From a virus: a stretch of DNA of 64,000 nt. Shown here in pieces: positions 3,392-49,108 of the stretch; position 1 is the first letter of the stretch, and each line of letters starts with the position of its first letter. The notes under the pieces were generated by a model. The model was not told the DNA's origin. It searched no databases and was given only the letters and a program-made list of their open reading frames with translations. Position numbers and translations under genes: made by a program. The stretch is from the IMG/VR virus record IMGVR_UViG_3300031918_000005, positions 103,486 to 167,485 of that record, one strand, 5' to 3'.

Positions 3392-4066
3392 TCAACCTTT
3401 AGTTTTTTTATTTATTTTATAAATTGTTTTGTGTAACCAATATTCAAGTTTTGTTAGTAATGATTTCGATTCCATATTTTTATAATACAATTCAAAAATA
3501 GATATCTTCTCAAATTCCGATATTTGTGTGTTGAGTATGTCAACATCTGTATCATATGTTACACAATTATGAACCAACAATCCATCAGCAATAAACATAT
3601 GAAGCTTATCATCAATTGTTATGTCAAATACTTTATGTTTACCATTCAATAATTCAACTGATTCAATAATATCAAATTTACCTTCGGCATCGGTAAGACA
3701 ATATTCATTCATTACACAATCTTCCAAATGGCTTTTCAATCGTTTTGTTGAAAAGTATGTATTTTTAACAACGACTGTATTTCTTACAATACAGCAAGGA
3801 AATATATGGTCTTCAGTAGCTTGTATTATTTTACCAGTTTTAGTGGTTATTTTACACAATTCTTTTTTACCATTATAATGTACATGAGTTATTTTTGAAA
3901 TTCTTGTTTTATCTATATTAACAAAGTAACCAAAGGGTTCTATTTTATAAGACCTTTGGTTACTATATATTATAACATCTTCAATCAAAGATATCAAATA
4001 TATGATAAGCTTAGGGGAAAAATTTTTACACGATGTTTTTTGTAACTTCGACATAATCTTCATCAT
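3392..4066 (-). CDS. Split-intein protein: C-fragment fused directly to an N-fragment
   Basis: 224 residues. Residues about 60-90 carry intein block B (CKITTKTGKIIQATEDHIFP, with TxxH at T84-H87). Residues about 146-167 carry blocks F and G (VFDITIDDKLHMFIADG, then VHN). Cys168 follows at once, and CVTYDTDVDI...ISIFELYYKN is itself a textbook intein block A start (compare CLSYDTEIL of DnaE inteins). The ORF then ends after a helix LLTKLEYWLHKTIYKI. It is therefore an intein C-fragment split between blocks A and B, then HN, then an intein N-fragment, with no host-protein residues between. It overlaps the upstream gene by 41 bp. An alternative reading is that residues 168-224 are an ordinary C-extein. 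Confidence 0.75.
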   Translation of the reverse strand: MMKIMSKLQKTSCKNFSPKLIIYLISLIEDVIIYSNQRSYKIEPFGYFVNIDKTRISKITHVHYNGKKELCKITTKTGKIIQATEDHIFPCCIVRNTVVVKNTYFSTKRLKSHLEDCVMNEYCLTDAEGKFDIIESVELLNGKHKVFDITIDDKLHMFIADGLLVHNCVTYDTDVDILNTQISEFEKISIFELYYKNMESKSLLTKLEYWLHKTIYKINKKTKG

Positions 4067-10736: not shown

Positions 10737-12740
10737 TTAAATTGAATGTATTTCACAAGAACCACCTGAACAAGCAGATTCTCTCGTGGTTTCTTTATTT
10801 ATTGAAACGCCAACTTTTGATAAATCAATATCTTCAGGTATCATACTAATCATATATTCATATTGTTCTTTGTCGATTTTTTCAAAAGGTGTTTGTTGAT
10901 AAGTATTATCGATTTTAGGTAATAATGTAAGACCAGCACAATCTTTTCTGTTTTCCCAAATCCAATTAATAACTTCATCAACATCTTTGTTGTCAACAGA
11001 TACTGTTGCGGAAACATTATTGTAAGAAGAACCTTTATGATGTCCGTTTCTTATCCAATTGATATTATATCTTTTGATACGCTCAAGAAGTTCTATTGGT
11101 GATTCATTTTCTGTGATACAATTATCATCACTTTTCATAGGTAAAGATAACACCAATTTAGTTTTATCAAGCAAATCATCTTCAATAAAATCTGGCATTA
11201 CTTCTTTCAGATATTTTGCAATCGGCTGTGCCTTTTGAATTCTGATTCTTCTAGTATAATATTCAGCAAATGCAGAATGTACACCAGCACCAAATGCTTC
11301 AGCAACCAATGTTGTAGAGCCTTCAGGTTTTATACAAGTAACTCTATCAGCTGGATTTATACCAATAAGATTGGCAATTCTTTCATTTTCTTCTACTGCG
11401 CATTTTGCAGCTTGAGCCTCATCAAGATTTTCAATCTTACGACCAGCAATACCAGTTATTGAAACACCAAGTAATGCTTGTTTTTCAGCTTTTTCTTTCC
11501 AAGAATATCTAATATAATGAAAATCAGTAAATCCAGCTTGTAAAGTACCAAAGAAAGCAGCGATTTTTGAACGAATATCAAAATCTTCTTGAGATTCTAT
11601 ATTATAAGCATTAATTGTTGTTAAGTTACAGAATGACTCCGATTCAAAAACGATTTCACCACAAGGATTCGATAAAACATTATCTTCATTTGTGAACAGT
11701 ATTCCAGGCTCTCCAGTACCGTTTGTGATTGATTTTTTCATCACAGTTTTGAATTCATTTTCTGTGATATTATCATATCTTTCAGAAATAGAATTGTTAG
11801 ACATTGCTCTGTGTGGATAAACATGATACCATTGAATTTTATTGTATCTTAATAGAGCAATGTCTTCAACACTAACAGAGCTTATGCTTACTTCATGAGT
11901 TAAACCATCTTTTGTTATAATTTCATAAACGTTATTACCGTTTTCTTCTCTCAAGTATTTGTGAGATTTGAATTCAATTACTGATTTTGCATCAATAATA
12001 GTACTATCTTTATCAGCAAAAACAATGATAGCAGCCGAACGAATACCACCTGATACAACTGAATAAGCAATGATATCAACTATATCAAGACATTCTATAT
12101 CTGTTAATTGTCTTCCAATTGCATTTTTAAGAATAATATCAATTTTTGTTATAGCCCATTGAAGCTTCTCACTTCCAGGAGCTTGACATTGTAGTTTTTT
12201 GATTAAAGAACCTTTTGGTCTGATATCAGAGAAATCAAAGGTAGGATAATTATTTCCTCTGAAATAAGAATACATCAAAATTCTTATTGCATCAGACCAT
12301 CCCTCAACACTGTCAGAAATTCTGAATTTTTTTGGTGATGATGGTTGGATTACTGGAGGTAATTTGTTGATACATCTTTTTTTCAATGACACACCAACAC
12401 CACAACCCGATAGAGATAAAAACATAATTTCTGAAAAAACTTTAATATTGTCAAGTTCAATACCTGAACAATTATACATTCTCGCATGGTTGTTTTCAAT
12501 TGGAATACCAGAATACTGTAATGCTCTCATCGATGGAAAGACTTTTTTATTTTTTATAAACTGACCGTTTGAAATTATTTCATCTTCTAAATTTGGATAT
12601 TGCCTTACCATCATCTGTAAGTATTCGTCAACTATTTCTACCCAATTCATTTTTCTTTGTGGATTGCCTAATTCTTCTTTTATTCGTGAATACTTCGTGA
12701 ATACAACAATATCCGATAGTAATTGGTCTGGTTTAATCAT
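10737..12740 (-). CDS. nrdJ: Adenosylcobalamin-dependent ribonucleoside-triphosphate reductase (class II)
   Basis: 667 residues. Visible features are FIKNKKVFPSMRALQYSG, the first active-site Cys region (MYNCSG), SLSGCGVGVS, NPCGEIVFESESFCNLTTIN (class II RTPR has NPCGEI where class I has NLCLE), PEGSTTLVAEAFGAGVHSAF, and a C-terminal redox pair CSGGSC near residues 656-661. It reduces NTPs to dNTPs using a B12-derived radical, so it needs no oxygen or small subunit; no nrdB-like gene is seen nearby. Slightly shorter than the 739-residue Lactobacillus enzyme. The product pool feeds the MazG-like, PurZ-like and dUTPase steps encoded elsewhere here. Confidence 0.82.
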   Translation of the reverse strand: MIKPDQLLSDIVVFTKYSRIKEELGNPQRKMNWVEIVDEYLQMMVRQYPNLEDEIISNGQFIKNKKVFPSMRALQYSGIPIENNHARMYNCSGIELDNIKVFSEIMFLSLSGCGVGVSLKKRCINKLPPVIQPSSPKKFRISDSVEGWSDAIRILMYSYFRGNNYPTFDFSDIRPKGSLIKKLQCQAPGSEKLQWAITKIDIILKNAIGRQLTDIECLDIVDIIAYSVVSGGIRSAAIIVFADKDSTIIDAKSVIEFKSHKYLREENGNNVYEIITKDGLTHEVSISSVSVEDIALLRYNKIQWYHVYPHRAMSNNSISERYDNITENEFKTVMKKSITNGTGEPGILFTNEDNVLSNPCGEIVFESESFCNLTTINAYNIESQEDFDIRSKIAAFFGTLQAGFTDFHYIRYSWKEKAEKQALLGVSITGIAGRKIENLDEAQAAKCAVEENERIANLIGINPADRVTCIKPEGSTTLVAEAFGAGVHSAFAEYYTRRIRIQKAQPIAKYLKEVMPDFIEDDLLDKTKLVLSLPMKSDDNCITENESPIELLERIKRYNINWIRNGHHKGSSYNNVSATVSVDNKDVDEVINWIWENRKDCAGLTLLPKIDNTYQQTPFEKIDKEQYEYMISMIPEDIDLSKVGVSINKETTRESACSGGSCEIHSI

Positions 12741-21967: not shown

Positions 21968-23368
21968 ATGAAACATTCACAAACGACTTTTAATTATTTC
22001 TTTGCAGAAGGAAAAATAAGTTTCTTACTTGATGGGTTTGCAGGCTCGAGTGGTAAAGGACTTTTATCATCTAACATTGTTAAAAATAGCACAAATTGTA
22101 ATTTTGCTATTTCAACAAATGGTCAAAATGCATCACATTATTATGAGGAAAAATTTCCTGATGGTTCTGAAAAAATCATTTTGTTCAAAGTACTTCCAAC
22201 ATCTTCTGTTTATCATAAAAAGCTTGATGCCGTTTATGTGTGTCAAGGAGCAGCATTTGAACCAAAAAGACTTCTTGAGGAAATAGAACTTACTGGTATT
22301 CCAAGACATAAAGTGAGAATTCATTATAAAGCTGGTATTATATCTCAACAAGACAGAGATTTTGAATCTGGTGTTTGTGATTATGAAGGTAATATTAATA
22401 AAGAACGACAAAAGGGTACTGTAACTTCGGGTACTACAGCAAGTGGTGCTGGTGCTGTTCGTGCTAAAAAATGTATGCGTAATCCAGACCAAAAAATTTA
22501 CGCTTATGAATACCCTGAATTACAGGAGTTTTTATGTGATACGGAAAGAGAAATCATGTATAGACTTGATTCAGGCCAATCTGGTCTTTTCGAAATCGCT
22601 CAAGGTTTTGCACTTTCTTATGGTTTATCATACAGCAAAAGAAATACAACTGCTCGAAACTGCTCGATAACTGCTGCTATCGATGATGCTATGATTGCAC
22701 CTTTTTATATTGGTAATGTTTTTATTAATTTAAGAACACATCCTATCAAGATAAACAATATGAAATGGGTATTGAAAGGTGATGTTCCATATTATGTAAC
22801 TGCTGAATTATCTTTAGCTGAAGCTAAAGCAAGATTCGAAGAAAGACTTTTCAATTTTGTTGATAACGGTATAGTAATAACAGTTATTACTAAAAAAGAT
22901 ATATTTTTAACTGGTTTTGATTTAGAAAAATATCCCGAAATACCATATGAAGTTGTTGATTCTTATTCAGGTGATTGGTATCGTAATGGTTGGGAAAAAC
23001 CTGAAACACAAGAAGAATTGACTTGGGAACAAGTTGAGGAACAATATGGTGATAAAATAAACAAAAAAGCTATTTATACATCACTTACATTAATGCCAAG
23101 AAGAGTTGGAAGCTTTTCTACAGAACTCCTTGAAGATTCAATTAGATACAATATGCCACCAAGTGGTTACAAGGTTTATCTTTCATTAAATTTCTGTAAC
23201 TGGCTTGATAAAGAAATTGAAGGCAAAACAGAAGTTCAAGATATAACAGAAAAAGTTGAAAATTGGATTAATAAAAATATTGATTCTGTTGTTTTAAATT
23301 TTAAAGGTAGTGTAAAACTTGCTATACTTGGAACTGGTAAATGGGTTGATGAATTTATCCAAGTATAA
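21968..23368 (+). CDS. purZ: PurZ-like (2-aminoadenylosuccinate) / PurA-family synthetase
   Basis: 466 residues. The PurA P-loop WGDEGKGK reads FAGSSGKG, so the catalytic Asp13 (E. coli numbering) is Ser and Glu14 is Ser. Other PurA elements remain: GQNASHYYE (GHNAGH, with N38 and H41 kept), TSGTTASGAGAVRAKK (GTTGRGIGPAYEDK), FEIAQGFALSYG (FEGAQG), KRNTTARN (SSNTTAGG), MPRRVGSFS (TGRRRRTGWLD loop), NFCNWLD and GTGKW. As I recall, loss of this Asp to Ser is the hallmark of viral PurZ, which joins aspartate to the 2-amino purine dGMP and needs no base to activate IMP. A plain adenylosuccinate synthetase for AMP is the alternative but would lack its base. Confidence 0.8.
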   Translation: MKHSQTTFNYFFAEGKISFLLDGFAGSSGKGLLSSNIVKNSTNCNFAISTNGQNASHYYEEKFPDGSEKIILFKVLPTSSVYHKKLDAVYVCQGAAFEPKRLLEEIELTGIPRHKVRIHYKAGIISQQDRDFESGVCDYEGNINKERQKGTVTSGTTASGAGAVRAKKCMRNPDQKIYAYEYPELQEFLCDTEREIMYRLDSGQSGLFEIAQGFALSYGLSYSKRNTTARNCSITAAIDDAMIAPFYIGNVFINLRTHPIKINNMKWVLKGDVPYYVTAELSLAEAKARFEERLFNFVDNGIVITVITKKDIFLTGFDLEKYPEIPYEVVDSYSGDWYRNGWEKPETQEELTWEQVEEQYGDKINKKAIYTSLTLMPRRVGSFSTELLEDSIRYNMPPSGYKVYLSLNFCNWLDKEIEGKTEVQDITEKVENWINKNIDSVVLNFKGSVKLAILGTGKWVDEFIQV

Positions 23369-25364: not shown

Positions 25365-25745
25365 ATGAATATTGGTGTGGATTTTGATGGAACATGTGTA
25401 ACACATGAATTTCCAAAAATTGGAGAAAATATTGGTGCTGTCCCAGTACTTAAAAAAATTATTAAATCTGGACATAATATAATACTTAATACTATGCGAA
25501 GCGATATATGTAATTTGCAAGAAGCCATAGATTGGTTCGCTTCTAATGGTATTAAATTGTATGGTATTAATGAAAATCCTAGACAAAAATCTTGGACTAC
25601 AAGCCCTAAAGTATATGCTGATTTATATATAGATGATGCTGCTATTGGGTGTCCACTTCTATTTGATATTAATATATCTACAAGACCTTATGTTGATTGG
25701 GTAAGAATAGAGAAAGCACTTATAGACTGTAAAATCATAAGATGA
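25365..25745 (+). CDS. HAD-superfamily hydrolase-like protein
   Basis: 126 residues beginning MNIGVDFDGTCVTHEFPKIG. DFDGT is HAD motif I with both catalytic Asp residues. IILNTMRS gives the motif II position, and YADLYIDDAAIG is the motif IV acidic pair. The length and the DFDGTCVTHEFP...GAVPVLK start match the small BT0820-like HAD proteins common in Bacteroidota and their phages. The substrate cannot be predicted. Its stop overlaps the start of the terminase gene by 4 bp. Confidence 0.75.
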   Translation: MNIGVDFDGTCVTHEFPKIGENIGAVPVLKKIIKSGHNIILNTMRSDICNLQEAIDWFASNGIKLYGINENPRQKSWTTSPKVYADLYIDDAAIGCPLLFDINISTRPYVDWVRIEKALIDCKIIR

Positions 25746-26818
25746 TGGTTAAATTTCTTAAGATAATATTAAAAATTGTTATATATTTTAATCATAAACT
25801 TTGGAAATATAAAGTTGATGAAGATTGTATAATTAATTCTGTTGTTCCTAAAAACAACACGCTTATAGGTGGTGTTAAAGGAAGCCAACACTTATCTGCT
25901 GTTCATATAAAAACCAATTCAGAAATACTTAAGATAACAACTAAAAACGGTTGTTGTGTTAAATGTTCAATAAACCATTTATTTTATGATTCCAACATGC
26001 AAATTGTTGAGGCTAAAAATATCACAAGACAAACATTCTTGGTAACAAAATATGGTTTATCAAGAGTTGTTATGATTCAAAAATTACCAAGAGAATTTAC
26101 ATTTGATGTTACAATAGGTTCGGGTGAAATGAGTTATTTTTCGAATGATATATTGAGCCATAATTCAATTATATCAGGTATTTTCATAATGTGGTATCTT
26201 CTTACAAATTACGATAAGGGTGTGGCCTGTACTTCTGCAACCGATGATAAAGTAAAAGAACTTATTGAAAAAATAGAAACGGTATATGATAACTTACCGT
26301 TTTATATGAAACTTGGTATATGTACAGATAACCAAAAAAGGAAAGTGTATGATAATGGTTGCTCTATAAAGGGTGAAACTGCAACGGAAAAAGCTGGAGC
26401 TGGATTAACAGTTAATGGTATACTTTATTGTGATGAGTTTGCGTTAATTGACCCAACAGTACTGAAGGTATTCTATACAACAATATTTCCAACAATGTCT
26501 TCTTCACAAACAGCAAAAATGATTATAACATCAACTGCAAGGGGAAGAAATTTATTTTGGCAACTTTATACAGATGGACTGCTTGGTAAAAATTATTTTA
26601 ATCCTATTCGTGTTGATTATTTTGAGGTTGAAGGTCGTGATGAAAATTGGAAACAACAAGAAATTGCAAATCTTGGTGGTTCTATTGAATCATTTGAACA
26701 AGAATATGCAAATTCTTTTGATACAAATCAACAATTGCTTTTACCAGCTGATGTAATGAAAGTTATGAAATCATATCAATCACATTTCAAAAATAATTGT
26801 TTATCACAAGCATCTTGA
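25742..26818 (+). CDS. terL: Terminase large subunit, middle fragment: intein C-fragment + ATPase domain
   Basis: 358 residues. Residues 1-141 are an intein C-fragment lacking block A: block B-like LKITTKNGCCVKCSINHLFY, block F FDVTIGSGEMSYFSNDIL, and the end SHN. Ser142 starts the extein, SIISGIFIMWYLLTN, which aligns just after GK of Walker A (T4 gp17 RQLGKTT-VVAIFLAHFV). Walker B is ILYCDEFALID (D231, E232), and the coupling motif is TSTARGR. The protein stops after FEQEYANSF...KSYQSHFKNN, at the ATPase-nuclease linker. The N-terminal terminase piece with the intein N-fragment is not in this window, and the nuclease domain is at 48269. Splicing in trans is required for a complete ATP site (inference). 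Confidence 0.88.
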   Translation: MMVKFLKIILKIVIYFNHKLWKYKVDEDCIINSVVPKNNTLIGGVKGSQHLSAVHIKTNSEILKITTKNGCCVKCSINHLFYDSNMQIVEAKNITRQTFLVTKYGLSRVVMIQKLPREFTFDVTIGSGEMSYFSNDILSHNSIISGIFIMWYLLTNYDKGVACTSATDDKVKELIEKIETVYDNLPFYMKLGICTDNQKRKVYDNGCSIKGETATEKAGAGLTVNGILYCDEFALIDPTVLKVFYTTIFPTMSSSQTAKMIITSTARGRNLFWQLYTDGLLGKNYFNPIRVDYFEVEGRDENWKQQEIANLGGSIESFEQEYANSFDTNQQLLLPADVMKVMKSYQSHFKNNCLSQAS

Positions 26819-27668: not shown

Positions 27669-28195
27669 TGGTAAGTAATAACTTTCATATCAAGTATAAT
27701 AAAATGTTTATGATATTTTTTATACTTGTTATGTTGGGTTCTCTTGTTTCGGCTTATCACATATTTGAAACAATGTCTATTGGCAATCCAATAATTTTTG
27801 CATTAGCAATAGCTGTTGTTTATGAATTTGCTCAAGTACTAATAGTATTGTTAATACCTCAAATAAAAGATAAAACTAAATCATATGTTTTTTCTGTATT
27901 CGCAATTATAATACTCATACAATTATTTTCCAATATATATTATTCATATAATTTTATCCAATCACATATGGATAAAAACGCTGTTATGTTCAATAATTTT
28001 TATGATATACTGAATATCTTTAGTGAAATAACTGATAAGAAACTTGTTACATTCATATTTGCATCAATTATAGGTATGCCTATTCCTATCATAACATTGC
28101 TACTAGCAAAGATTTTTTCTGATAAAAATGACGAAGATGATGATGTACAGAGTACAGATGAATATTATAAAAAATTAATATCAGAATTGGAATGA
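27668..28195 (+). CDS. Polytopic membrane protein (about four TM)
   Basis: 175 residues. Hydrophobic segments lie at about residues 14-32 (MFMIFFILVMLGSLVSAY), 38-60 (IGNPIIFALAIAVVYEFAQ), 75-97 (YVFSVFAIIILIQLFSNIYY) and 127-148 (LVTFIFASIIGMPIPIITLL). An acidic tail DKNDEDDDVQSTDEYY follows. Its stop overlaps the polymerase start in an ATGA arrangement. A polymerase gene directly coupled to a membrane protein is unusual, but no functional link can be shown from sequence. Confidence 0.5.
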   Translation: MVSNNFHIKYNKMFMIFFILVMLGSLVSAYHIFETMSIGNPIIFALAIAVVYEFAQVLIVLLIPQIKDKTKSYVFSVFAIIILIQLFSNIYYSYNFIQSHMDKNAVMFNNFYDILNIFSEITDKKLVTFIFASIIGMPIPIITLLLAKIFSDKNDEDDDVQSTDEYYKKLISELE

Positions 28196-29673
28196 TAAAT
28201 GCGAAGCAGATTTTTGATAACATGTCTATCTCGTACTTTAATGAAGATGGTATAATTGAAATAATGAATTTACCAATTTCTGATAATGAAAAATTTATAT
28301 GGGAAGAAACTACAGAAGAAGATAGATATAAGCATAATGTTATTACTTCTCAATTTGATAGACCAGTAAAAAGAATAAGGAAAAATTATTTGTCAAAATA
28401 CAGACAGATAGAATATATCAATAACTTACCACAAGAACTTAAAGACAAAATATTTTCAGATAATAAACCGAAAAAATGGTTTTGGGATATTGAAACTGAA
28501 ATCATAGATGGTGTATTCCCTGATGCATCAAATCCTATAGGAAAAATTTTACTCCATACAATATGTGATGAATTCGGCAATGGAACTATATTTGGTCTAA
28601 AACCGATGACTGGTGAAGAGCTTAAACGTATTGAAATTGACTTAATCAATCACTTATCCAAAGTTAAGGATAAGAAATTGATTAAGAAGGTTAATCTTCA
28701 ATATCGCCAATATGCCGATGAATATTCCATGAATCATGATTTCATTTCAAATTACATGATAAAGTTTCCTATAACTTTTGGTTGGAATGTTTTGAAATTT
28801 GATGCTCAATATTTTTTCAATAGATGCAAAAAACTTGGAATCGATTATGTTAAAATCCTTTCTCCAGTTCATAAATCTTTTTCACATTCTTTATCTGATA
28901 AGTACAATAAAGAAAATAAAATACTACTTGATTTACCGCTTCATAGACCTATAATTGACTACATGCAGATTTTTGAATTTTTCGACCAATCTGTAAAGTA
29001 TAAAACATCAATGTCGCTTGGATTTATATCTGAAGAAGTACTTGGAGTTACCAAAGTTGAATATTCTGGTAATTTACAAACACTATATGAAAAAGATTTT
29101 CCTAAATTCTGTTTCTATGGTATAGTTGATGCATTTCTTGTGCAAATGATTGATGAAAAAACCGATATTTATTCACTTATGCAATCAATTACCAACATTG
29201 GTAAAGTTGAATTATTATTTGGCACATCGGTTTCTATAATTATTGAATCTTTGTTTAGTGACTATTATTATAGAGTGTATAACAAAGTGTTTATCAAAAA
29301 AGAGAATGTTCATGAAGGATATGATGGTGCTTTTGTAATAGACCCTATTGTTGGGCTTTACGAATATATTGGGATTTATGACTTTGAAAGTCTATATCCT
29401 TCAATCATGCAATTCCTCAATATTGGTCTTGATACATTTGTTGGTCAAACCTATGGTGGAGATAAAACAACTGTAATTACTAACACTGGTGAACAAATGC
29501 CATTTGATAAAGCTACTATGATTAGAGCCAATAATGGTGTTGTTTATACAAACAAAATTGAAGGATGCGTGAGAACATCCATTAATGAATTATTCACAAG
29601 GCGTGTAAATGCTAAATATGCCAATAATGATATTGGTAATGAAGTGGAGCAACTCAAAAAACTATTAATATAA
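28192..29673 (+). CDS. 43: Family-B DNA polymerase, N-terminal part (exonuclease + motif A)
   Basis: 493 residues. The 3'-5' exonuclease motifs are WDIETE (D99, E101), FGWNVLKFDAQ (N199, D204) and YGIVD (Y309, D313). Polymerase motif A is DFESLYPSIMQFL (397-409). The protein ends RRVNAKYANNDIGNEVEQLKKLLI and stops, exactly where family-B enzymes continue into motif B (K-x-x-x-N-S-x-Y-G). Motif C (YGDTDS) is absent from the window. So the gene is split, and the C-terminal palm and thumb must be supplied by another gene; no intein N-fragment is attached. It is followed 6 bp later by groES. Confidence 0.9.
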   Translation: MINAKQIFDNMSISYFNEDGIIEIMNLPISDNEKFIWEETTEEDRYKHNVITSQFDRPVKRIRKNYLSKYRQIEYINNLPQELKDKIFSDNKPKKWFWDIETEIIDGVFPDASNPIGKILLHTICDEFGNGTIFGLKPMTGEELKRIEIDLINHLSKVKDKKLIKKVNLQYRQYADEYSMNHDFISNYMIKFPITFGWNVLKFDAQYFFNRCKKLGIDYVKILSPVHKSFSHSLSDKYNKENKILLDLPLHRPIIDYMQIFEFFDQSVKYKTSMSLGFISEEVLGVTKVEYSGNLQTLYEKDFPKFCFYGIVDAFLVQMIDEKTDIYSLMQSITNIGKVELLFGTSVSIIIESLFSDYYYRVYNKVFIKKENVHEGYDGAFVIDPIVGLYEYIGIYDFESLYPSIMQFLNIGLDTFVGQTYGGDKTTVITNTGEQMPFDKATMIRANNGVVYTNKIEGCVRTSINELFTRRVNAKYANNDIGNEVEQLKKLLI

Positions 29674-37126: not shown

Positions 37127-38158
37127 ATGTTTGCAGAACTTCATACTCATTTAGGTGGTGCTACATCACCTCAAACTTTATTTTCAATAGCTTACGATAG
37201 AGGTTTTAATATAAAAAGGTTTTCCAATTATGAAAATTTTTCAAACTTAATTCGTAATGGTATTGATAGTCGAGCAATTAGAAGAGGTAATGAATTTACT
37301 GAATATCTTGATAGATATAAGATGATTCAGGAAATATGTTCTTATCCACAGTCAATACAAGAATCTGTTTATAAAGTACTTGAAGACTTATACATAAATC
37401 ATAATTACAGACTTGTTGAATTGAAATTCAATCCAGCATTGAGAAATCAAAAAGGATTATATGACCTTGATTCTATAATATTGTCCGCATGTAATGGTAT
37501 TCAAAAAGCCAAAAATATATTCAAAGATTTGGAATGTGGTATAATAATTGAATCAGACCAATCATTCCCACTTAAGCTTACTCAAATTATTTTTGAGAAA
37601 GCTGTTAAATTTAAGAATTTTGGTGTAATTGGTGTCGATATTTCAGGATTTTATGGTGATTATTCACATAATCTCTATGGTGGTTTTTATAAGGAAGTAT
37701 TCAAATATGTTAAAGATAACGGATTAAAGATAACTTTACATCTTGGTGAAACACTTGTTGACGTGCCGAAGGAATCAGAAAGAAAATCACTTGAAGATTT
37801 TAAATCTATAATTGAACAAGTTGATAGAATAGGTCATGGTGTTCAGTTTTTATTATATTCTAAATTTGCCACTGATTTAATAAGAGCGTTAAAAATTCCA
37901 ATAGAATTTTGCCCAAATTCAAATTTAAAAACAAAGGTTATAAATCAGGAAGAAATAGAAACTGTTGTTACAAAAGCACATTATAACGATATTGATATAG
38001 TTTTGTGTACCGATGGTCATGTTTTCAATGGAAATTTTGAAGACAATCTCAAGACAATACAACACTGTGTGAAGGATAAAGACATTTTTGAAGTATTCAA
38101 AAATTCGGTATCAAATTTTGATAGAACTAAAAAACATTCATTCATTAATATTTTATAG
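37127..38158 (+). CDS. Adenosine deaminase-family protein
   Basis: 343 residues, the usual ADA length. Metal and catalytic motifs are present: ELHTHLGGA (H6, H8), ITLHLGE (ADA H-A-G-E, with catalytic Glu and metal His), RIGHGV, EFCPNSNLKT, and VLCTDGHVF for the usual TDDP-x-V-F. The first Asp of that last motif (metal and water) is kept, while the second (ADA Asp296, which holds purine N7) is Gly. The family hydrolyses the 6-amino group of adenosine or related nucleosides or nucleotides. The change points to an altered substrate. It sits directly before a guanylate-kinase-like gene (1 bp gap), which suggests a shared role in the purine pool. Confidence 0.85.
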   Translation: MFAELHTHLGGATSPQTLFSIAYDRGFNIKRFSNYENFSNLIRNGIDSRAIRRGNEFTEYLDRYKMIQEICSYPQSIQESVYKVLEDLYINHNYRLVELKFNPALRNQKGLYDLDSIILSACNGIQKAKNIFKDLECGIIIESDQSFPLKLTQIIFEKAVKFKNFGVIGVDISGFYGDYSHNLYGGFYKEVFKYVKDNGLKITLHLGETLVDVPKESERKSLEDFKSIIEQVDRIGHGVQFLLYSKFATDLIRALKIPIEFCPNSNLKTKVINQEEIETVVTKAHYNDIDIVLCTDGHVFNGNFEDNLKTIQHCVKDKDIFEVFKNSVSNFDRTKKHSFINIL

Positions 38159-38159
38159 C

Positions 38160-38648
38160 ATGTTTGGTAAAAAAATTATATTGGTAGGTGCTGGAGCATC
38201 AGGAAAAGATTATTTCAGACAGAACTTCCAAAAACATTTAGGATTGAAATTTAGTTTATCATGTACCACAAGAGAACCAAGAGAAGGTGAAATTGATGGT
38301 AAGGACTATAAATTTATACCAAAAGAAATGTTTGAAAGCTTTATTAAATTTGGTAATATGCTTCAATATGCTGAATTTAATGGAGAATTTTATGGTACTA
38401 CAAAAGATGACTTCAACGAATGTGATTTATTCATAATGTCACCTGATGGCATTGCACAAATGTCACCTGAAGATAGAAAACTTTGTTCTGTCGTGTTTAT
38501 ATTTGCTGATGCTGCTGTAACATATGACAGATTTTTACAAAGAGGATTCAGTGAATTACAAATCGGTCAAAGACTTGTTGCTGATGAAAAATTGTTTAGT
38601 GGATTTAACAACTATGACTATATAATTGTTAATAACTTTAAAGGTTAG
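38160..38648 (+). CDS. gmk: Guanylate kinase-like protein
   Basis: 162 residues from the ATG at 38160, one base after the ADA-like stop. The P-loop region is LVGAGASGKDYF, with Asp17 where kinases have Ser or Thr. The GMP-binding segment is SCTTREPREGEIDGKDYKF (Gmk STTTRPPRPGEVDGVDYHF), followed by YAEFNGEFYGTTKDDF (YAEVFGNYYGTS). The lid region is short and the protein is about 45 residues shorter than bacterial Gmk. Guanylate kinase is also the enzyme that phosphorylates dZMP in 2-aminoadenine phages. The odd P-loop residue leaves catalytic competence uncertain. Confidence 0.78.
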   Translation: MFGKKIILVGAGASGKDYFRQNFQKHLGLKFSLSCTTREPREGEIDGKDYKFIPKEMFESFIKFGNMLQYAEFNGEFYGTTKDDFNECDLFIMSPDGIAQMSPEDRKLCSVVFIFADAAVTYDRFLQRGFSELQIGQRLVADEKLFSGFNNYDYIIVNNFKG

Positions 38649-43630: not shown

Positions 43631-43650
43631 TCATTAACTCAATTTAAAAT

Positions 43651-43686
43651 AGAAAAAGCCAAGAGAGTGATCTCTTGGCTTTTTCT
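43651..43686 (+). terminator. Terminator before the MazG-like gene
   Basis: A perfect 16-bp stem (AGAAAAAGCCAAGAGA and complement) has the loop GTGA, and TTTTTCT forms the descending arm. The symmetrical A/T ends would allow function in both directions. Confidence 0.85.
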
Positions 43687-43713
43687 ATTGTGATTATTTA
43701 TATTCTATCATCA

Positions 43714-43734: not shown

Positions 43735-44355
43735 ATGAAAGTAACAGTTAATAGTATAGAAGAACTTTCAAATGAATTGAATAAATACTCCGATTATAAG
43801 CATTCTAAAAAATTTATGAATAATAAATTTTTTATATTCAAATCAAAAATTTTTGAAAGTTCAACACTTAACATAAAAATCGAATTTGGTAAAACTTTGG
43901 TTAAGGTAATAGAAATACAATCACTTCCTAAAACATACGATTATATCGAAAATTATATAAATTATGTTGGTCAAGAAATAAACAACAACAAATCTGGTAA
44001 TAAAATAATACTTGATTTATTAAATATGTGTATGGGTAATTCAATTGAGGCTAATGAGGTTCTTGGCGTTTTGCAAAAGAATGTATTCTTCGGCAAAGAA
44101 TATGAAAAATGGAAAATGATTGATGAATTATCGGACAACTTATTTTATTTTGTTGGAATTATGCGTTTGATAGGTACTAACTTTGAAGAGGTTATTAATG
44201 CCAATATGATAAAATTGAAATCTAGATATCCTGATGGTAGGAGAAATCTTAGTGTTTTCATTAATAAAAATAAAGAAAAAGAAAAAGTACTAATACAAGA
44301 ATTAATAGATAAAAACGAAAAAAATGGAAAGTCTAAAAATCCTGAAATTCAGTAA
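43735..44355 (+). CDS. mazG: MazG-like nucleotide pyrophosphohydrolase (MazZ candidate)
   Basis: 206 residues from the ATG at 43735 (a TTG at 43675 falls inside the terminator). The MazG core is clear: LLNMCMGNSIEANEVLGVLQKNVFFGKE..., then MIDELSDNLFYFVGIMRLIGTNFEEVINANMIKLKSRYPDGR (cited in parts). It contains the E-x-x-E pair (E-A-N-E) and E-x-x-D (E-L-S-D) that bind Mg. It would hydrolyse a dNTP to dNMP plus PPi. In Z-genome phages the MazZ member makes dGMP for PurZ, and this phage has a PurZ-like gene. Specificity cannot be read from sequence. It is followed, with a 32-bp overlap, by the next gene. Confidence 0.83.
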   Translation: MKVTVNSIEELSNELNKYSDYKHSKKFMNNKFFIFKSKIFESSTLNIKIEFGKTLVKVIEIQSLPKTYDYIENYINYVGQEINNNKSGNKIILDLLNMCMGNSIEANEVLGVLQKNVFFGKEYEKWKMIDELSDNLFYFVGIMRLIGTNFEEVINANMIKLKSRYPDGRRNLSVFINKNKEKEKVLIQELIDKNEKNGKSKNPEIQ

Positions 44356-45154
44356 ACTTAATGTAAAAAGGTTTATTGATTATTTGTCTGATACAAACAT
44401 AAAAGAAAAAGAAACTATTGACTTTGAACAAACAAGATTGGTATGTAAATCTCATAGCGAAATGAAGATGTATATCAAATTTGTTGAGGTTGGTATTGAC
44501 AAATTATTCGGAGAAATCAATCCTTACAAACACCTATATTTTCCATTAAATGATGTCGGTAAACTTATTAAGATTTTTGAATTGTACAATTCTAATAATA
44601 TTGAAACAGTTGATGGTGATATACATTATTATGATGATAATGAAGGTAATCAAGTTGCCACACTTTTTAATATCAAAGCTGGACAGCTGAAAAACAAAAT
44701 AGCTCTTGGTGAGTATGGAAATATTCAATATTTGAAAACTGATATATGGGAAAAAACCATATCAGAAGTTGAAAAATCTTCAATTGTTTTCAAATTATTG
44801 GCTATTGATGTTGATAATTTACTTAAATTATTGGCTATTGATAAGGACACAGCTTTTTTAAATAAAACGAAGGATTTCAACAAATTCGCTGTTAAACCAA
44901 CAAGCAATGGAAAAATATCAATAAATTCATTTGAAGGCAAATGGGAATATTTGATAGAAGATGTTGAGATAATGACAGAAAAGAAAGAAATTTATTTCTT
45001 TGATATAACGCTTAAACTTCTTGATAAAAAAGACCATAAAGTTAGCGTATATCTTTCATCGAGAGGTCTTTATATGGGATACATTGAAGAAATTAAATTA
45101 GAAGAAACTATAAAACCTAAAAAATACTTGGTAAGCTGTGATATCAAACGATGA
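44324..45154 (+). CDS. Unrecognised 276-aa protein in MazG-like operon
   Basis: It starts MESLKILKFSKLNVKRFIDYLSD. It is mixed alpha/beta with two roughly equal halves: IDFEQTRLVCKSHSEMKMYIKF...YKHLYFPLNDVGKLIKIFELYNS, and WEKTISEVEKSSIVFKLLAIDVDNLLKLLAIDKD... A two-domain layout with 'F-P-L-N-D-V-G-K-L-I-K-I-F-E-L' loosely recalls sliding clamps, and a T4-like phage needs one. The resemblance is weak and unverified. It overlaps both neighbours, so expression is coupled. Confidence 0.4.
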   Translation: MESLKILKFSKLNVKRFIDYLSDTNIKEKETIDFEQTRLVCKSHSEMKMYIKFVEVGIDKLFGEINPYKHLYFPLNDVGKLIKIFELYNSNNIETVDGDIHYYDDNEGNQVATLFNIKAGQLKNKIALGEYGNIQYLKTDIWEKTISEVEKSSIVFKLLAIDVDNLLKLLAIDKDTAFLNKTKDFNKFAVKPTSNGKISINSFEGKWEYLIEDVEIMTEKKEIYFFDITLKLLDKKDHKVSVYLSSRGLYMGYIEEIKLEETIKPKKYLVSCDIKR

Positions 45155-45743
45155 AGAAGAAATAATTGATAAAATAGAAAAAATAGAAGATGGCTCTGAA
45201 TACATCATCAACAGCCAATCAACTCTATCTTTTTCTATTGATATTTGTGTGGAAATAGACCAAGAGCTTACAGACCCCGAGGCATATTATAATAATAAAT
45301 TTATATATGAAAGGGTTGTAAAAGCACTCAAGGAAATATCTCACTCAAACGAAAAATATAACTACATAAGAGATTTATCGATTGAATTCATTGAAATAGG
45401 CTCACTTGTTTTGTATTCTGATATTCTGTTTAAGGTTGAATACGTATTCGATGATGATGATACAGTTCTTATACACAATGAAGTTAATGATGAAATTAAG
45501 CTGGTTTATAAGCTTGAGTTAATGCCGAACGATAATGCTTGTAAGAAAATAACAAACAAAGATATACAATTTATATTCAGTGAACTTATATCAAAGTTCA
45601 CAATCAATAGAGATAAAGACGCAATATATGATGTGTTCATGTCATTTTCCAATTACATGAAAATAGATGTAAAGAAAATATATAAATCTCTAGATGATAA
45701 AACACAAAAAATTTTAGTAGCTGCACTTAATAAAAAGATTTGA
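45138..45743 (+). CDS. Hypothetical acidic protein (GTG start)
   Basis: 201 residues. No ATG is available near the N-terminus; a GTG at 45138, overlapping the preceding gene by 17 bp, is the best start. The N-terminal part is acidic (SNDEEEIIDKIEKIEDGSEY). The centre is beta-rich (SLVLYSDILFKVEYVFDDDDTVLIHNEV). The C-terminal 60 residues are helical (IQFIFSELISKFTINRDKDAIYDVFMSFSNY). Its place behind the 276-aa gene would suit a small replication accessory protein, but there is no motif to prove it. Confidence 0.45.
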   Translation: MISNDEEEIIDKIEKIEDGSEYIINSQSTLSFSIDICVEIDQELTDPEAYYNNKFIYERVVKALKEISHSNEKYNYIRDLSIEFIEIGSLVLYSDILFKVEYVFDDDDTVLIHNEVNDEIKLVYKLELMPNDNACKKITNKDIQFIFSELISKFTINRDKDAIYDVFMSFSNYMKIDVKKIYKSLDDKTQKILVAALNKKI

Positions 45744-45748
45744 AAAAA

Positions 45749-46186
45749 ATGGAAAATCAAACTAAGGCTTTTAACGATTTAACACTTAAAATCGTTAAAA
45801 ACAGATGTGAATTGACTGGATTCGATTACAACCCACCGTTTATTGAAGAAATAAAAATAATTGGTGGTCGATTTGACAGTACAAAATTCTTATACTTCTT
45901 CGATGATTTAACACAAAAAACTTATGACAAAATAGTTGAAGTGTGTAATTATTATTTTACTCCTCAAAAACACTATACTTCAGGCCAAAGAAGTCTCGTT
46001 AAAAAAATAAGCACCATATTTGGAGAATGTTCAGGTGACTTTATTTTTAGAAAAGATGATGAAGGACTTTCATTCGTTGATTTGAATCAAGCATGTGGTG
46101 TTCCTAATCAAATAGCAACAGTTCTTAGGAACAATAAAGTCAAGGTTGTTAAAACTACAGAAAGAAGGATTTATATCAGTAATTAA
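45749..46186 (+). CDS. Hypothetical protein, last gene of MazG-like operon
   Basis: 145 residues from the ATG at 45749 (a TTG at 45740 overlaps the preceding stop). It begins MENQTKAFNDLTLKIVKNRC, has a helical middle with FFDDLTQKTYDKIVEVCNYYF, and ends FVDLNQACGVPNQIATVLRNNKVKVVKTTERRIYIS. The last segment looks like a small helix-turn-helix followed by a strand. It is convergent with the virion gene at 46183, overlapping by 4 bp. Not recognised. Confidence 0.5.
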   Translation: MENQTKAFNDLTLKIVKNRCELTGFDYNPPFIEEIKIIGGRFDSTKFLYFFDDLTQKTYDKIVEVCNYYFTPQKHYTSGQRSLVKKISTIFGECSGDFIFRKDDEGLSFVDLNQACGVPNQIATVLRNNKVKVVKTTERRIYISN

Positions 46187-48268: not shown

Positions 48269-49108
48269 ATGGGTTATTCTGAAACACTTTTGGATTATGA
48301 TATGTATTTATATCTTCATGAATCTATAAACATTTCAAGGTTTCAGGATGAAAGAAGAATGTTTGTACACACAATAGATTTGGCAGAAGGTGCTGGAGGT
48401 GATTATTCAGTTATCAATATATTTGAACTTTTACCAATGACACTTGAGGAAATCGAAAATGTTACATTAATAGAAGATGAATATTCGTTTTTCAAATTGG
48501 TTCAAATAGCAATGTTTAGGTCTAACACAATAATAGTTCCTGATTTAGCAAAATGGTATTATCACTTCTTAGTAGAAGTTTGTATTCCCGACAACACAAA
48601 AATATGTCTCGAAAATAATTACGATGGTAATTATTTTCGAGAAGTGTTGACCAAATTGTATGGTGATGAAAATGAACTTGATGGTGATTTCATGTTCTTT
48701 GTATTTCCATACAATATGAAAGATGACCAGTCTTATGCAGTTAGAATTGGTCTTAGACAATCAGAACACACAAAGAATTTGGGTACTACAATGATGAAAA
48801 CTCAAATGCGACAAAATCAACTTATACTTACCGAATTCATAACAATAGAAGAAGCATTATCTTTTGCAAGGAAGAAAACAAAAGATGGTGGTTTTGGTGG
48901 GTATTGCGCTATGATTGGTAATGATGATTGTATAATGTCTGTAGTTAATATAACGCATATTAGAAAACTTCCTGAATTCCAAGAACTGATTGATGAAGTA
49001 TCCAAATATTGCCCTAAAGAATTTTGGGATGCTATCAGCAAGAAAATGAAAACAATTGCATCTTCAGATTCATCAGGTGATATAACATCAATTTTTGGCG
49101 CAAAGTAA
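48269..49108 (+). CDS. terL: Terminase large subunit, separate nuclease domain
   Basis: 279 residues. It aligns with the C-terminal RNase-H-fold nuclease of T4 gp17: TIDLAEGAGGDYSVINIFEL (D37; gp17 [20 protein letters not shown]), then ICLENNYDGNYF (E115; gp17 VYIELNSTG), then GNDDCIMSVV (D219/D220; gp17 HDDLVMSL). All three acidic catalytic positions are thus present. There is no ATPase domain and no intein sequence. The ATPase part (25742-26818) ends in the same linker where this begins, so the two domains are encoded as separate proteins 21 kb apart and must assemble non-covalently, or be joined by means not visible here. Confidence 0.88.
   Translation: MGYSETLLDYDMYLYLHESINISRFQDERRMFVHTIDLAEGAGGDYSVINIFELLPMTLEEIENVTLIEDEYSFFKLVQIAMFRSNTIIVPDLAKWYYHFLVEVCIPDNTKICLENNYDGNYFREVLTKLYGDENELDGDFMFFVFPYNMKDDQSYAVRIGLRQSEHTKNLGTTMMKTQMRQNQLILTEFITIEEALSFARKKTKDGGFGGYCAMIGNDDCIMSVVNITHIRKLPEFQELIDEVSKYCPKEFWDAISKKMKTIASSDSSGDITSIFGAK

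Follow-up and report, generated by a model that had tools for sequence, protein, structure and literature searches.

A canonical phage MazG that accompanies PurZ and PurB in a lineage of large phages and may supply dGMP for Z synthesis

The window analysed here, a stretch of 64,000 bases (bases 103486-167485 of a 167,485-base IMG/VR record, labelled G000), encodes a MazG-like protein as well as a PurZ and a PurB, enzymes of the pathway to the unusual DNA base Z (2-aminoadenine). This protein has a MazG domain with intact metal motifs, and its gene tracks PurZ and PurB in a phage lineage whose members have diverged deeply. By sequence, it is a member of the canonical phage MazG family (PF03819/PHROG 229) and not, by descent, a MazZ-1 or a MazZ-2. 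The best explanation, which we consider about as probable as its negation, is that a phage MazG of the canonical kind, whether recruited or co-inherited, makes dGMP from dGTP for PurZ and thereby does the job of MazZ from within another MazG subfamily.

The mazG gene and its product

An alternative TTG start at 43675 would lengthen the mazG reading frame. Since this codon falls within a terminator-type hairpin (−28.4 kcal/mol, z = −8.0), the ATG at 43735 is the likely start. The hairpin also parts mazG from the upstream gene, so that mazG likely opens a transcription unit of its own together with the reading frames at 44324-45154, 45138-45743 and 45740-46186. The protein matched the Pfam MazG family PF03819 with 25.6 bits, above the cutoff of 22, and PHROG 229 ('MazG-like pyrophosphatase') with E = 1e-20; on these two profiles, its assignment as MazG is well above chance. 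As the preliminary description had stated, the E-x-x-E and E-x-x-D metal motifs are intact: E105, E108, E131 and D134 are invariant in an alignment of 29 phage MazG sequences, and so are Y138, N157, K160, L161, R164 and P166.

An AlphaFold2 model computed with the 29-sequence alignment had a mean pLDDT of 80, rising to about 87-97 in the MazG helices, which span roughly residues 70-197, compared to a pLDDT of 44 with a 3-sequence alignment only. The metal motifs were modelled on helices 90-119 and 125-146, and residues 1-61, with lower confidence, as an N-terminal extension rich in beta structure. The top viral structure matches of the model were MazG/NTP-PPase proteins; a fold search of the PDB returned mostly CorA helices with TM-scores < 0.3.

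Table 1 Features of the window and related loci (positions refer to the window unless a genome or locus is named)
Feature	Position	Strand	Basis or remark
Second intein C-half, fused to short C-extein	3392-4066	-	PF14890, E = 2e-8
Class II ribonucleoside-triphosphate reductase-like	10737-12740	-	214 bits, below equivalog cutoff
PurB (adenylosuccinate lyase-like), 450 aa	17790-19142	+	Profile match
PurZ, 466 aa, Ser28 in GSSGKG where PurA has Asp	21968-23368	+	PDB matches, alignment, tree
Terminase large subunit, ORF 1	25742-26818	+	Starts with intein C-half (PF14890)
Family B DNA polymerase, ORF 1	28192-29673	+	
Adenosine deaminase-like	37127-38158	+	Directly upstream of guanylate kinase
Guanylate kinase-like	38160-38648	+	Proposed dZMP kinase
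Terminator-like 19-bp hairpin with few T after it	43648-43689	+	Between upstream gene and mazG
MazG-domain protein, 206 aa	43735-44355	+	Pfam, PHROG, alignment, AlphaFold2 model
E105-A-N-E108 (E-x-x-E metal motif)	44047-44058	+	
E131-L-S-D134 (E-x-x-D metal motif)	44125-44136	+	
276-aa protein of no assigned function	44324-45154	+	Counterparts after mazG in relatives
Terminase large subunit, ORF 2	48269-49108	+	
Terminase large subunit, ORF 3	G000 88806-89363	-	Outside the window
Family B DNA polymerase, ORF 2	G000 89387-90604	-	Outside the window
HD-domain phosphohydrolase	L003:5065-5847 of the same genome	+	PHROG 318 (dNMP phosphatase)
MaF61 ORF62 (MazG domain)	L009:36416-37003	+	Pfam, 24.1 bits
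G006 PurZ	L038:1795-3048		Same new clade

Relationship to MazZ and other MazG proteins

The gene had been proposed to encode the dGTP-hydrolysing MazZ step of the Z pathway. Comparison with the MazZ proteins by family and by profile places the window protein outside both MazZ families. MazZ-1 of S-2L (PDB 7ody) matches PF04447 and other PHROGs; the window protein has no PF04447 match and thus lies outside this family (searching the lineage for PF04447 gave no hits, but neither did the controls). A profile of the window group showed no significant match to MazZ-1 (probability 4.6%), and the probability for MazZ-2 (PHROG 9860) was 0.2%, which leaves the protein outside that family too. When searched against the PDB, the same profile found E. 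coli MazG (3cra, E = 7e-12) and did not retrieve S-2L MazZ, although 7ody is present in the library. MazZ-1 residues I56 and D60 are said to preserve guanine specificity (PMC8342488); counted from the common ExxD motif, they align with F137 and G141 of the window protein, so the guanine contacts are not kept. What the window protein shares with MazZ-1 is the all-alpha MazG-like NTP-PPase superfamily, the ExxE and ExxD ligands and the reaction proposed for both, whereas the Z-cluster is missing here. With MazZ-2 of phiVC8 and Ochrobactrum phage OH it has in common that it is a small MazG-like protein of PurZ phages with conserved acidic ligands. However, the MazZ-2 gene adjoins purZ and datZ, whereas mazG of the window is 20 kb from purZ and not part of a datZ-mazZ-purZ cluster.

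The PHROG 229-type MazG of S-PM2, a cyanophage not reported to contain Z, has the positions G-x3-E-x2-E, E-x2-D-x3-Y and N-x2-K-L-x2-R in common with the window protein, although the two are only about 27% identical, the window protein has the beta-rich N-terminal extension and it carries ELSD-LFY where S-PM2 has ELGD-WY. The S-PM2 enzyme prefers dGTP (Km 0.14 mM, kcat 400 per min), followed by dCTP (PMC6850273). Since the window MazG bears the same signature, activity with dGTP is plausible by analogy, and to this extent the proposed MazZ step is supported, whereas by family, profile and guanine-contacting residues the protein is neither MazZ-1 nor MazZ-2; dGTP activity alone would not be evidence for Z. 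Hydrolysis of (p)ppGpp, by which MazG would blunt the stringent response of the host, goes back to the historic MazG annotation mentioned in the literature (PMC8515928), but the cyanophage MazG tested showed no binding or hydrolysis of (p)ppGpp (PMC6850273), and we regard this function as extremely improbable.

The protein could also be an ordinary phage MazG, encoded alongside replication genes (as in T4-like cyanophages), that recycles dNTPs or cleans the pool (dGTP, dCTP, dUTP, damaged nucleotides) and is merely co-inherited with PurZ, having no special role in Z synthesis. Its family and signature are indeed common to the MazG of many PurZ-less phages, and cyanophage MazG has a similar dGTP/dCTP activity without Z. 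Genes for recombination, a nuclease, a chaperonin or a polymerase lie close to mazG in G005 and MaF61, which fits such a role as well, and so does the distance of mazG from purZ. On the other hand, MazG is absent from most PurZ-less relatives within this phage group, although guanylate kinase is kept where tested. We judge the ordinary role to be a substantial possibility, though one that falls somewhat below an even chance. The MazG tree, built from 84 columns, was poorly resolved, with a p-AU of 0.44 for a single clade of PurZ-associated MazGs.

PurZ, PurB and the distribution of mazG in the phage lineage

The closest cultured relative that we found is Flavobacterium phage MaF61 (PQ858689, 167.8 kb), a myovirus (PMC13269007). 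G000 and MaF61 have capsid, sheath, portal, polymerase and helicase genes in common at roughly 25-40% identity and are, judged from these sequences, distantly related. A dUTPase, GroEL and the initial portion of a family B DNA polymerase are also encoded in the window.

Two genes of this genome are split. The terminase large subunit is encoded by three ORFs (Table 1), two of them far apart; the MaF61 terminase is whole. Since G001 has the same three pieces, the sequences suggest that they are joined in trans by split inteins. The polymerase is encoded by two distant ORFs and is also split in G001, split but adjacent in G007, and whole in MaF61. A second intein C-half is present in the window.

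In a PDB search, the PurZ-like protein matched phiVC8 PurZ and S-2L PurZ (7odx). We aligned it with PurZ, PurZ0 and E. coli PurA sequences and calculated a small tree. The diagnostic Ser, in place of Asp13 of PurA, is present in all six members of its clade (G000, G001, G005, G006, G007 and MaF61); the clade (support 100/100) joins PurZ, excludes PurZ0 (100/99) and is apart from PurA. On this evidence, the gene is a real PurZ relative, and the six sequences form a third clade within PurZ in this small tree. The PurB-like protein scored 282.7 bits with the adenylosuccinate lyase model, below the equivalog cutoff. The two partner genes reported earlier from the same 64 kb are both real. A protein of G067, considered as a further PurZ, is a canonical PurA with Asp (GDEGKG), and a PurZ search of bacterial and archaeal genomes found nothing.

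The PurZ/PurB pair might produce something other than genomic Z, or be a relic, in which case MazG would feed no Z pathway. The lineage PurZs have long insertions and low identity to the assayed PurZ, the phage polymerase is of family B, DpoZ was not found, and there was no DatZ (PHROG 7076) among the proteins scanned. However, the diagnostic Ser and the nucleotide-binding residues are kept, and PurZ and PurB are retained together across phages that are 35% identical; we therefore regard this explanation as improbable.

MazG was present in five of the six PurZ records and in one of 29 PurZ-less relatives (Fisher p = 1e-4, or 5e-4 with G000 and G001 merged; the values ignore relatedness, and many of the records are fragments). 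Four records (G009, G014, G039 and G040) that look like fragments of the window's genus or its nearest neighbour were left out of this count. Among the records found through PurZ, G000, G001, G005 and MaF61 have both genes, and the G001 MazG is 66% identical to that of the window. The remaining one, G006, is a 67-kb fragment with PurZ but no detected MazG and few genes in common with the others; it has class I RNR and DHFR genes elsewhere, and its sequence hints at horizontal transfer of this type of PurZ. We also gathered 34 records of the lineage by tail sheath or helicase, and not by PurZ or MazG: PurZ was present in one of them (G007) and MazG above the cutoff in two (G007 and G025). Although only ~35% identical to G000, G007 keeps PurZ, PurB, MazG, the adenosine deaminase-like enzyme, the HD protein and guanylate kinase. 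In both PurZ-less relatives tested (G008 and G010), MazG and PurB are absent and guanylate kinase is present; the kinase is thus not a marker of PurZ.

The records with the next closest MazGs gave a different picture: 29 of 30 had no PurA/PurZ match and the other one had a canonical PurA. By sequence, many phages that lack PurZ carry a generic MazG, in agreement with the earlier remark that it means little alone. We looked among lineage members for relatives that have this MazG and lack PurZ, a case named in the preliminary description as refuting its proposal, and found none; the co-occurrence that it had suggested checking does hold. Since the phages with both PurZ and MazG are one lineage, the association may go back to one event in evolution.

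In all five genomes, mazG precedes a gene whose product is 270-281 aa long, with one gene between the two in G007. Profiles of this neighbour link the genomes (window/G001 with G005, 94.8%, and with G007, 96.2%; G005 and G007 together with MaF61, 90.8%), and therefore the five mazG genes are likely positional counterparts. The 276-aa neighbour had no Pfam, PHROG or PDB match, and the guess that it is a sliding clamp was not supported. In G007, the guanylate kinase gene overlaps the start of mazG. MaF61 ORF62 resembles the window MazG in its domain, its PurZ- and PurB-encoding phage and the following gene of similar length, but it is very divergent: direct homology was not significant (BLASTP, hhalign), and the two are linked only by position, Pfam domain and the C-terminal N-x2-KL-x2-R motif. 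The domain of ORF62 is longer by about 57 residues; these lie between the ExxD helix and the N-x2-KL-x2-R tail and may be a degenerate second MazG repeat.

A possible route to Z and the described Z phages

As an all-alpha NTP pyrophosphohydrolase with its metal held by E105, E108, E131 and D134, MazG would convert dNTPs to dNMPs and pyrophosphate, and its most useful product in this phage would be dGMP from dGTP. The ribonucleotide reductase looks, by sequence, like a triphosphate-type enzyme that would yield dGTP and not dGMP; dGMP would thus have to come from dGTP. PurZ would then combine dGMP with aspartate to succino-2-amino-dAMP, PurB would release fumarate to give dZMP, guanylate kinase would form dZDP, and the host NDK would produce dZTP. 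Judged by sequence, each enzyme class of this pathway except NDK is encoded. The HD protein of G000, which has counterparts in MaF61 and G007, was weighed as a DatZ candidate, but in G000 and MaF61 it scores with PHROG 318 and not with PHROG 7076. The adenosine deaminase-like gene is also present in G001 and G007 and was not found in MaF61. We can only guess that the deaminase-like enzyme removes deoxyadenosine in the Z pathway and that, together with the HD protein, it takes the place of DatZ in keeping dATP out.

If a canonical MazG indeed serves PurZ in this way, it would be catalytically active with a preference for dGTP, its product would flow through PurZ and Z would be present in the phage genome. 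The position outside the MazZ families, the distance of mazG from purZ and the failure to find DatZ and DpoZ count against this reading. To summarize, the gene and its setting are as the preliminary description had it; whether the gene completes the upstream step of the Z pathway, that is, works like a MazZ, is evenly balanced, and that it is a MazZ is not supported. A more specific proposal, which we put forward tentatively and with somewhat less than even confidence, is that of a third, separately recruited MazZ: an ordinary MazG would supply dGMP for the third PurZ clade in large Flavobacterium-type myoviruses. These phages, which have a family B polymerase and encode PurB and guanylate kinase themselves, would make Z-DNA with neither DpoZ nor a DatZ-family enzyme nor a Z-cluster.

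A MazG that feeds PurZ has already been proposed for Alteromonas phage ZP6 (PMC8515928). In the literature consulted, Z phages are siphoviruses and podoviruses (PMC8342488; PMC8599892); they use DpoZ or PrimPol, and their PurB is supplied by the host (PMC12884076, PMC12783734). If our reading is true, a lineage of 167-kb myoviruses that encode PurB, the kinase, MazG and a family B polymerase themselves would widen the biology of Z-DNA and the set of enzymes for making it. Since MaF61 has already been cultured, the question can be put to a direct test. An ordinary gene family is found here in an unusual setting that is open to experiment.
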